Origin: Candidatus Saccharimonadota bacterium
Lineage (GTDB): Bacteria; Patescibacteriota; Saccharimonadia; Saccharimonadales; Saccharimonadaceae
NCBI GenBank assembly: GCA_027492735.1
Contig: JAPUEE010000011.1
Location: forward strand, 1 to 64,000
Reading direction: 5' to 3'
Length of the DNA: 64,000 bases
Part shown: one piece after another, positions 50,040 through 54,335 of the stretch
Layout: each line of letters opens with the position of its first letter
Position numbering within the stretch: the first letter of the stretch is position 1
The notes under the pieces: generated by a model
Seen by the model: the letters and a program-made list of their open reading frames with translations, nothing else
Told to the model about the DNA's origin: nothing
The model's database searches: none
Program-made: the position numbers and the translations under genes

Positions 50040-50764
50040 TGAAAAAGGTATTACTCCTCCAGTCGCGGCCAGAGCTAGAGGCGAGTGATGATGAATTCCG
50101 AGCTTTCCGTCGATTCGGTGGATTAGATGAGAAGCAAGTGGTGCGCCTGCAGATGCATGAAGTACAACCGACGATCGATTTAAACGACTATGCGGTGATA
50201 CTCATGGGCGGCGGACCAGCTAATTTTGCCTATGATGACGATCACAAATCGTCTGAACAAAAAGCGTTTGAACCATGGTTGTGGCGATTACTTGATCGAA
50301 TTATCGCCGAGGATAAGCCATTTTTCGGAGCGTGTTTAGGGCTCGGTGCATTAGTGACGCATGCTGGTGGACGGATGGATTTTCGGGCTGGTGAGCCAGT
50401 AGGCGCGGTTGATATTCGTTTGGTCGCCGAAGATCCGATATTAGCAGATGCACCCCAGGAATTTGCGGCCTTTGTCGGTCACAAAGAAGGTGCTAGAGAA
50501 GTTCCATCCGAGCTAACAGTGCTAGCTAGGAATGATACCTGTGTGCAAATGGTTCGTCGTGGCCAAAATGTCTATGGCACACAGTTCCATCCCGAGCTTG
50601 ATCCGGCAGGTCTCGAGCTACGAATCAATACTTATCGTCATGCCGGCTACTTTGAACCCGAAGAGGCTGACGATTTGATTGCAAAGGCTAGGCAGTCTGG
50701 TATTGGCGATGTGCCAACAAATATATTGCGAGCATTTATTGTACGTCATGTAGCAACGGTATAA
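50039..50764 (+). CDS. class I glutamine amidotransferase-like protein
   Basis: 241 residues from a GTG overlapping the tyrA stop by one base. The GATase1 triad is present: Cys in FGACLGLGAL, His and Glu in YGTQFHPELDP. The stand-alone form resembles the GuaA-N-like amidotransferases annotated as GMP synthase-like, whose acceptor is often unknown; no synthetase subunit is fused or adjacent. Confidence 0.88.
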   Translation: MKKVLLLQSRPELEASDDEFRAFRRFGGLDEKQVVRLQMHEVQPTIDLNDYAVILMGGGPANFAYDDDHKSSEQKAFEPWLWRLLDRIIAEDKPFFGACLGLGALVTHAGGRMDFRAGEPVGAVDIRLVAEDPILADAPQEFAAFVGHKEGAREVPSELTVLARNDTCVQMVRRGQNVYGTQFHPELDPAGLELRINTYRHAGYFEPEEADDLIAKARQSGIGDVPTNILRAFIVRHVATV

Positions 50765-50772
50765 AAATTTTA

Positions 50773-50784
50773 ACATGTTGAACG
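50773..50784 (+). repeat. direct repeat, left copy
   Basis: ACATGTTGAACG here recurs exactly at 51558-51569, each preceded by a similar A/T-rich AAAA(G)TTT(A) stretch. The pair brackets the riboswitch-like leader and the PQ-loop gene. Confidence 0.5.
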
Positions 50785-50834
50785 TCTAGGACTAGTAAAA
50801 ACGTCAGTGATATGATATGATTAAGAGTGAAATA

Positions 50835-50939
50835 GTTACATCTCGCGCTCGCGATAGGGGTATGCTCCCTAAGGATGTAGCACTTGGTCAGTTCAGCACT
50901 AGCTGACCGGCAATAGCAATATCGTCGGCCAGCTTTTTT
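50835..50939 (+). ncRNA. riboswitch-like three-way junction with terminator
   Basis: P1 GTTACATC (50835-50842) / GATGTAGC (50874-50881); P2 TCGC/GCGA (50843-50854, loop GCTC); P3 TAGGG/CCCTA (50855-50871). Downstream, GGTCAG (50886-50891) pairs with CTGACC (50903-50908), and the same segment AGCTGACCG (50901-50909) alternatively pairs with CGGCCAGCT (50926-50934), a terminator followed by T6. TATGAT -10 boxes lie at 50811-50821. No known riboswitch consensus recognised. Confidence 0.6.
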
Positions 50940-51021
50940 GGTGCGGTGATGTTGCAAACAAAAAATAATAACTAGCCACGGCATGTACCTCAGGACGTTG
51001 TTCGTGGCGGAAAGGATCTTT

Positions 51022-51513
51022 ATGATATCGGCTTTAGTAACAATTGGCGCGCTCGTTTCAGCGGCAGCATCAATACCGTATATATTGGCAGTTATTCGTG
51101 GTACAGTGCGTCCACGGCTCGTATCATGGACGGTATGGGCTGTTTTAGCAGGGGTGAGCCGGCTTGACATCCTCTGCTTGGTGGGTGCTGCAATGGGCAT
51201 TGCATCACTCGTGGTATTTAAGAATCCGCTGATCGCCTTGGGCGTATCGGTGGCGGTGGATATTGTCGCGTTTATACCGACATTAGTGCATGCTTGGGTT
51301 AGTCCACACGAGGAATCATTAGCATGTTTTGCGCTCAGTGCAACTGGGGGTATCTTGGCTGTAATGGCTGTAGTGATGGGCGATATATCGCTCGCAGCGT
51401 TGCTATATCCAGTGTATTCTATGATATTTAACGGCGTAGCGGCCTTGTTAATACTGAGCGGACGCACTAAATTATTACCGTGGCAACAACAGCGCTACGG
51501 CGAAGAAGTCTAA
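51022..51513 (+). CDS. PQ-loop/SWEET-like small membrane protein
   Basis: 163 residues from the ATG preceded by GAAAGGA (the upstream in-frame start at 50983 has no such site). Five to six hydrophobic helices in two similar halves; ASIPYILAVIRGTVRPRLVSWTVWAVL in parts resembles a PQ-loop repeat (P-Q-x-x-x-x-x-R...S-x-W). Such proteins transport sugars, amino acids or other small solutes. It directly follows the riboswitch-like leader, so its substrate may be the ligand. Confidence 0.65.
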   Translation: MISALVTIGALVSAAASIPYILAVIRGTVRPRLVSWTVWAVLAGVSRLDILCLVGAAMGIASLVVFKNPLIALGVSVAVDIVAFIPTLVHAWVSPHEESLACFALSATGGILAVMAVVMGDISLAALLYPVYSMIFNGVAALLILSGRTKLLPWQQQRYGEEV

Positions 51514-51557
51514 ACTGTTTGTTTATTGTACGTTACATGGCAATGGCATAAAAGTTT

Positions 51558-51569
51558 ACATGTTGAACG
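51558..51569 (+). repeat. direct repeat, right copy
   Basis: Exact second copy of ACATGTTGAACG (50773-50784), abutting the GC-rich hairpin that starts at 51568. Confidence 0.5.
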
Positions 51570-51656: not shown

Positions 51657-52181
51657 TCAGCAGGGGGGGGGGTTCTCCCCATCGAGGAACTCGAACAGCC
51701 GCTCGTCGAAGTCAGCTGTGACTTCGAGTTCGTCGTTTGCCCACTTGGAGCTGACGTTGCCGACGATCTCGGCTCCTCGCGGATCAGGGTTTGAATCCCC
51801 GACCAGGCCACTGATGACGTGACAGCTCCTTGAACGGATGTGGCGGTAGGCCCAGTTGAGAGCTGTGACCACATGGTCGGCCAGCTCGAAGTAGTCCTGG
51901 GCGCAGAGCAACTGCGTCTGGATATTCGCAGGCTGCTGGCGCAGCGCTGCGACATCGTGCTCGTTCGGCATGACGAAGCCGAACTTCGTGACCGGATTGC
52001 CGGTGTTGAACTGCGGCATCGGCTCACCGGTGAGGTGGACCGCGACGAACACTGAGCCGTCGCCACCTCCCGAGCCGATCAGCAGACCGTTGCTCGAGGC
52101 GACGAGTTTTCGCACGGCGACTTCTGCGAAGTCATTGTACTCGTTGTACACCGTCTCGATCGCATATGCAACCGAATCCAT
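51657..52181 (-). CDS. GC-rich orphan gene ending in a C10 tract
   Basis: 174 residues. AGGAAGGGA lies 8 nt before the ATG. The sequence (DSVAYAIETVYNEYNDFAEVAV, GLLIGSGGGDGSVFVAVHL, DYFELADHVVTALNWAYRHI in parts) matches no family I know; it looks globular and acidic. Codons are strongly GC-ending, unlike neighbours, suggesting transfer. Ten consecutive C on the coding strand (G run 51663-51672) encode the last Pro-Pro-Pro, so slippage would change only the extreme C-terminus. Confidence 0.65.
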   Translation of the reverse strand: MDSVAYAIETVYNEYNDFAEVAVRKLVASSNGLLIGSGGGDGSVFVAVHLTGEPMPQFNTGNPVTKFGFVMPNEHDVAALRQQPANIQTQLLCAQDYFELADHVVTALNWAYRHIRSRSCHVISGLVGDSNPDPRGAEIVGNVSSKWANDELEVTADFDERLFEFLDGENPPPC

Positions 52182-54220: not shown

Positions 54221-54262
54221 CAAGAAAAAAGAGCCAGATTGAACTGACTCTCTTTTCTTGGT
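54221..54262 (-). terminator. tRNA-Arg terminator
   Basis: On the minus strand, directly after the tRNA, AGAGTCAG pairs with CTGGCTCT (one wobble) over TTCAAT and is followed by T6. Longer flanks CCAAGAAAA/TTTTCTTGG also pair. Confidence 0.75.
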
Positions 54263-54335
54263 ATGCCCGATACGATTCGAACGTACGACCTTTTGCTCCG
54301 CAAGCAAACGCTCTATCCAGCTGAGCTACGGGCAC
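54259..54335 (-). tRNA. tRNA-Arg (anticodon GCG), CCA encoded
   Basis: Reading the minus strand: acceptor GTGCCCG / CGGGCAT, D-arm GCTC...GAGC, anticodon arm TTTGC-TTGCGGA-GCAAA with GCG at 34-36, T-arm GTACG-TTCGAAT-CGTAT, discriminator A, and an encoded CCA (54259-54261). GCG reads CGC and CGU. All cloverleaf stems form with few wobbles. Confidence 0.92.

Follow-up and report, generated by a model that had tools for sequence, protein, structure and literature searches.

What is the RNA that lies ahead of a small membrane-protein gene in the 64,000-nucleotide stretch of DNA analysed here (the window), and does it govern the reading of that gene? The window comes from a genome of 0.8 Mb in 26 contigs and belongs to the Saccharibacteria, bacteria that are ultrasmall, depend on a host and have few regulators known so far. 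A preliminary description of the locus had proposed a new riboswitch, namely a three-way junction followed by two mutually exclusive structures, a hairpin and a terminator, ahead of a PQ-loop-like transporter gene. In our judgement, the RNA rather probably acts in cis, as a riboswitch-like leader that controls its gene by transcription antitermination and starts at the transporter gene's promoter.

Position and fold of the leader RNA

The structured leader RNA occupies window positions 50832-50939 on the forward strand and comprises, in order, the three-way junction of P1-P3, the P4 hairpin and a terminator (Table 1). The 8-bp P1, the two flush hairpins P2 and P3 and the A-G joiner were all found where they had first been drawn, and the minimum free energy (MFE) fold agrees with them. 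The proposed competition of GGTCAG/CTGACC with a terminator ending in T6 is likewise present in the sequence, with GGUCAG/CUGACC lying inside P4, but the terminator stem consists of 10 pairs and one A.C mismatch rather than of nine positions. A simple terminator scan of the window found none at this place, presumably owing to the mismatch and the wide loop.

Table 1. Features of the leader RNA and its gene in window coordinates.
Feature	Position	Strand	Details	Basis
-10-like boxes	50811-50821	+	TATGAT at 50811-50816 and 50816-50821	sequence
P1, 5' strand	50835-50842	+	8 bp, GUUACAUC paired with GAUGUAGC	sequence, MFE fold, covariation
P2 hairpin	50843-50854	+	variable in size	fold, alignment
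P3 hairpin	50855-50871	+	invariant cap GGUAUGCUC at 50859-50867	fold, alignment, cap in 7/7 members
A-G joiner	50872-50873	+		sequence
P1, 3' strand	50874-50881	+	GAUGUAGC	sequence, fold, covariation
P4 hairpin (putative antiterminator)	50885-50909	+	strands 50885-50893/50901-50909; loop CAGCAC 50894-50899	folds, loop in 7/7 members
Intrinsic terminator	50901-50939	+	stem 50901-50911/50924-50934; T6 50934-50939	pairing, energies
Gene presumed to be controlled	51022-51513	+	membrane protein of 163 aa; orthologues about 200 aa	gene search, alignment, model

The MFE structure of the 212-nt leader contains both the P1-P2-P3 domain and P4, with a folding z-score of -2.2 (7 of 200 shuffled sequences were as good), and the aptamer alone gives -2.8 (3 of 200). 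Across the seven members of the family described below, such single-sequence folds yield modest z-scores of -1.1 to -2.8, and the folding energy of the window leader is only moderately unusual. What raises the leader above chance is that six homologous leaders show compensated changes in P1.

A TANNNT box lies 9-13 nt upstream of P1 in all seven members, the distances being taken by eye, and for this reason the RNA probably forms the extreme 5' end of its mRNA. No -35 box was identified, and a promoter scan of the window listed no promoter here. The seven members, the covariation in P1 and the -10-like box together show a structured and conserved aptamer lying in the 5' leader, as a riboswitch would have it.

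Homologues and distribution

A BLASTN search of 295 genomes of the family with positions 50790-51021 recovered, at E below 1e-5 and apart from the window itself, four genomes (G176, G133, G207 and G201; E 3.6e-25 to 2.5e-6), all of genus g16; the other matches listed were short and of 7.5e-4 or weaker. A covariance model built from the window, G176, G133 and G207 (R1) then added G459 (3.2e-9) and G432 (8.8e-4), both of a different family, f31, in which R1 found the RNA in 2 of 93 genomes and nothing further. Together with the window these make seven members, all Saccharibacteria, and the named relatives carrying the RNA are all 'Candidatus Saccharibacteria'. Searches with R1 or with a further model, R2, over 392 order, 93 f31, 392 class, 394 family and 332 phylum genomes, samples which overlap, gave no member beyond these seven. 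In particular, R2 matched 6 of the 392 genomes at class level (two of the matches being false), 5 of the 394 at family level and, among the 332 at phylum level, the window's own genome only. Within g16 the RNA is convincing in 4 of 13 genomes; in other words, the family is rare and patchy.

Several candidates were set aside. The two false class-level matches, in G514 and G188, both lie inside long open reading frames (ORFs), and a second match in G133 (L057) is without the P4 hairpin and heads no related gene. A match in G118, at E 0.56, was not seen again when R2 was used with a limit of E 5. Viral contigs gave no relative in a protein scan, and pattern scans of them returned 3 and 1 loci, none scoring as a member; the last of these matched the P3 cap alone, at E 0.15, in DNA of gene-like appearance.

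Conservation and covariation of the aptamer

With six members aligned to R1 (alignment A4), both sides have changed in 15 of 27 pairs, against a shuffled mean of 6.5, and none of 500 shuffles reaches 15; in P1 this holds for 8 of 8 pairs. What is more, 93.8% of the cells are paired, as compared with 28-51% when the structure is slid along the alignment (six of the seven members). Since A4 was fitted to the structure drawn from the window, P1 was also tested without alignment, on strands picked by the analyst. The members' own P1 duplexes range from -4.5 to -9.7 kcal/mol, while the 42 mixed strand pairs average -1.3 and at best attain -5.3 kcal/mol, none of them reaching the own-pair mean. The covariation called for in the preliminary description is thus present in P1, but that of the terminator amounts to a single pair, which 93 of 500 shuffles equal.

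Unconstrained folds contain P1 in all seven members and P4 likewise, if only partially in G432, and the complete three-way junction in four (window, G133, G176 and G459). P2 is enlarged in G432 and 4 nt longer in G176, and G201 has an additional hairpin between P1 and P4. The stems vary, yet all seven members carry the same letters in the P3 cap (GGUAUGCUC) and in the P4 loop (CAGCAC). The preliminary description stressed the junction, but the invariant letters sit in the P3 and P4 loops instead, and these loops are for that reason the likelier recognition site. UGCU of the P3 cap and AGCA of the P4 loop are complementary, so that kissing pairs are conceivable; as both loops are invariant, covariation cannot test them, and we estimate the chance that two 7-nt loops share four complementary bases at about 6%.

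Link to the downstream gene

In all seven cases the first gene downstream of the RNA is orthologous to the transporter gene of the window, with 36-56% identity to the G133 protein, and the window's own genome holds one match to it. Because all seven precede one gene family, a ligand cannot be read independently from the gene context. When the species-genome collection was scanned with a profile of the protein, 22 relatives came to light; the RNA precedes 6 of them, exactly those from Saccharibacteria, and R2 gave no match at the loci of the other 16. Among 61 genomes of the order, 20, the window's own included, match the protein at some level. Scanning 29 loci of distant relatives (L003-L031) revealed no convincing RNA, the best E being 1.5. 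When a query including the gene was compared with four loci (L033-L036), significant DNA matches fell in the leader only, the other pieces being of 18-23 nt at E 0.05, and hence the leader is better preserved than the gene at the DNA level. It is very likely that the RNA is, to put it no more specifically, a conserved cis-regulatory leader.

The unit of promoter, RNA and gene stands between the two copies of a direct repeat (window 50735-50784 and 51522-51569), each some 48-50 nt long. Its copies agree at 81% over 36 nt and then share an exact ACATGTTGAACG, which occurs only twice genome-wide; the left copy takes in the last part of the amidotransferase gene upstream. From the position of the repeat, the unit may have arrived by insertion or duplication as a cassette, and the other six loci have no flanking repeat above control. 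Further on, an ORF of 174 aa on the reverse strand (51657-52181) lies in a visibly GC-rich stretch amid AT-richer genes; it is possibly foreign, with no Pfam match and a weak NCBIfam match.

The downstream membrane protein

By sequence, the protein is hard to place: no Pfam family scores better than E 0.08 in any of the seven members, NCBIfam gives weak exosortase matches only (E 0.006 or worse, 20 members), and a search of PDB sequences returned no match of note. An AlphaFold2 model of the G133 protein, built with 20 sequences, has seven helices, the first of them split, at a pLDDT of 91.7. Foldseek ranks cystinosin and the KDEL receptor highest for this model (E 0.019-0.056), and structural comparison with VIA gives Z 15.9 for cystinosin (rmsd 2.9, 187 residues aligned), 15.3 for KDELR (rmsd 3.8, 187 aligned) and 10.8 for SWEET (rmsd 4.7, 174 aligned), the first unrelated entry below these scoring 7.3; PnuC follows at Z 5.5, rank 49, a value at which kinship is still possible. 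Judged by this modelled fold, the protein belongs to the PQ-loop/MtN3 superfamily and resembles cystinosin, the KDEL receptor and SWEET. The initial label of a PQ-loop-like transporter is thus upheld by fold but has no counterpart in a Pfam assignment. The window protein is missing about 39 residues around helices 2-3, in-frame, which are present in 6 of 6 orthologues; the gap is either a real deletion or an assembly artefact.

P4 versus the terminator

Four members, namely the window, G133, G207 and G176, use one strand (RCUGACCGRC) twice: it is the 3' strand of P4 and also the 5' strand of the terminator, which is followed by 5-7 T. All of the pairing cells in these four genomes are filled, 40 of 40 in the terminator and 36 of 36 in P4, and the A.C mismatch of the terminator stem is retained in each. 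One terminator pair shifts from A-U to G-C, where P4 retains U.A/U.G. In the same order of genomes, the terminator energies are -15.3, -13.3, -13.8 and -16.3 kcal/mol and those of P4 -11.1, -11.1, -12.0 and -10.9 kcal/mol, the terminator being stabler in all four. When the window transcript is lengthened in silico, the probability of P4, which is 0.89 at 80 nt, has shrunk to 0.11 by 104 nt and to 0.00 by 112 nt, while in the G133 transcript it drops merely to 0.29-0.40. Past the T run, the MFE structure of the window regains P4, since a third hairpin captures the U tract; in the full-length fold, the T6 also fits inside this later hairpin, at about 50915-50954.

The proposal of a mutually exclusive terminator therefore stands for four of the seven members; G201, G432 and G459 do not show the overlap and have platforms of another, less clear kind. 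In the folds of two of these, P4 strands complement downstream sequence, namely the 5' strand a stretch further downstream in G201 and the 3' strand the nucleotides directly following in G459, so that competition may exist there in another form. In G133 (L064, 2840-3000), the 3' strand of P3, AUGCUCCCU, complements AGGGAGCAU in the Shine-Dalgarno region, and since the full-length fold pairs the two, translation may also be controlled in that genome.

Discussion

Structure, conservation, gene link, strand overlap and energy order are all computed results, and they suggest the following course of events. RNA polymerase would make the P1-P2-P3 domain first and then P4. As long as P4 held, its 3' strand would be barred from the terminator and the gene would be read; were P4 to fail, the stabler terminator would take the shared strand and transcription would stop at T6. 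Since the terminator is stabler than P4, and since the probability of P4 falls as the terminator emerges, the models point to termination as the default and to an RNA acting as an ON switch. The invariance of the P3 cap and the P4 loop suggests, in turn, that the aptamer could hold P4 by docking the one onto the other (UGCU/AGCA kissing); this docking would be stabilised by a ligand, the likeliest candidate being a small molecule or an ion connected with the transporter's substrate. The docking, the ligand and the ON direction are what we infer here. Transcription antitermination by P4 in the window is, we think, quite likely, and for a true ligand-binding riboswitch we would put the case at even or slightly better.

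Could P4 be held against termination not by a metabolite but by a small RNA or by a regulator protein, after the manner of RAT-type antitermination? A hairpin overlapping a terminator would be expected equally for protein-stabilised antiterminators, the invariant loops could contact protein or RNA, and the single gene context is compatible with such an arrangement. However, RAT-type antiterminator hairpins are not known to need a separate three-way junction such as the covarying one found here; nor was a common regulator gene seen beside the seven genes (flanks of about 1.5 kb, by eye). We regard a protein or small RNA as unlikely. An unregulated structured leader, stabilising the RNA or terminating partially and constitutively without any sensing, would accord with the three members in which no terminator overlaps P4, with the fact that no ligand is known and with the protection that structure by itself could give to an mRNA. 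It would leave unexplained the invariant loop letters beside fully compensated stems, which speak for recognition, and the two-state overlap conserved in four genomes, and we hold it to be quite improbable.

Attenuation by a leader peptide, in which translation of a small ORF from the invariant AUG of the P3 cap would set the balance between P4 and terminator, draws on the invariance of this AUG and the following CUC in 7 of 7 and on an ORF of 14 codons whose end, in the window and in G176, falls within P4. Yet the ORFs are of 4, 6, 14, 14, 18, 30 and 31 codons, the reading frame over the CAGCAC loop varies among members, and the purine run stops 1 nt before the AUG, too near for a Shine-Dalgarno site. 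With neither frame nor length conserved, we rejected this mechanism as very improbable.

Does a riboswitch-like leader of this kind belong to a family already described? At the gathering threshold, Rfam 15 matched no leader: its sole match in the window was a tRNA (54262-54335), and at the six homologous loci it found two tRNAs and a SAM riboswitch, in agreement with the preliminary comparison by eye, which saw no match to the consensus features of purine, TPP, SAM, guanidine, fluoride, ZTP and c-di-GMP riboswitches. At E up to 10, the leaders of the window, G133 and G459 gave sub-threshold matches only, and no purine model reached even that value. A T-box was rejected, as no T-box model matched up to E 10 and P4 is without the UGGN bulge that a T-box antiterminator carries. 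Purine-type riboswitches (RF00167 and relatives) have a P1-closed three-way junction and a contact between two hairpin loops; the leader shares the former and is merely proposed to have the latter, but its loop partner P4 lies outside the junction, and its junction is not the conserved part. The SAM riboswitch mentioned above, a SAM-I (S box) element at L065 6034-6132 (59.6 bits) before a metK-like gene of Saccharibacteria UBA669, shows that riboswitch control exists in this group; in sequence and structure it is unrelated to the leader.

By analogy, the closest working system found is guanidine-IV (the GGAM-1 or mepA motif), described in the parts of the reports consulted as an ON switch of transporter genes in which kissing of two loops works against an intrinsic terminator (PMC7736828, PMC11611296). 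According to the same parts of the first report, it occurs in Firmicutes and six other phyla, sugE being the gene that it most often precedes, and the terminator stem forms part of the structure proposed for its ligand-bound state (PMC7736828). The two are alike in the ON direction and the loop-loop contact, both of which are proposed here for the leader. Going by the portions consulted, they differ in that the leader has a three-way junction and a P4 that excludes the terminator, a distinction drawn from description and not from sequence, and in that its gene is neither sugE nor mepA. NAD+-II (the pnuC motif) is, in the portion of its literature consulted, almost exclusively tied to one transporter gene, a link which the leader shares; the leader, however, is without an Rfam match and its protein is nearer to cystinosin than to PnuC in the comparison given above. 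The portions of the open-licence literature searched, including PMC8040213, PMC11109978 and PMC8632094, do not contain the motif.

We are thus probably dealing with a new and rare riboswitch-like RNA family, in which the family is new and the kind is already known. The fullest version of this reading, a new riboswitch class, so far seen in Saccharibacteria only, that reads its ligand at the kiss of P3 cap and P4 loop and switches on the cystinosin/SWEET-like transporter of that same ligand, seems to us evenly poised. The identity of the ligand, once found, would suggest the substrate of an uncharacterised transporter. Moreover, a natural ON switch could be put to use for controlling expression: in the part consulted of a review on Saccharibacteria, inducible expression is described as still awaiting development, and riboswitches are singled out as promising (PMC11665869). 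Finally, a riboswitch working by a kissing contact, if the proposal is true, would provide a ligand probe into the metabolism of these host-dependent bacteria.
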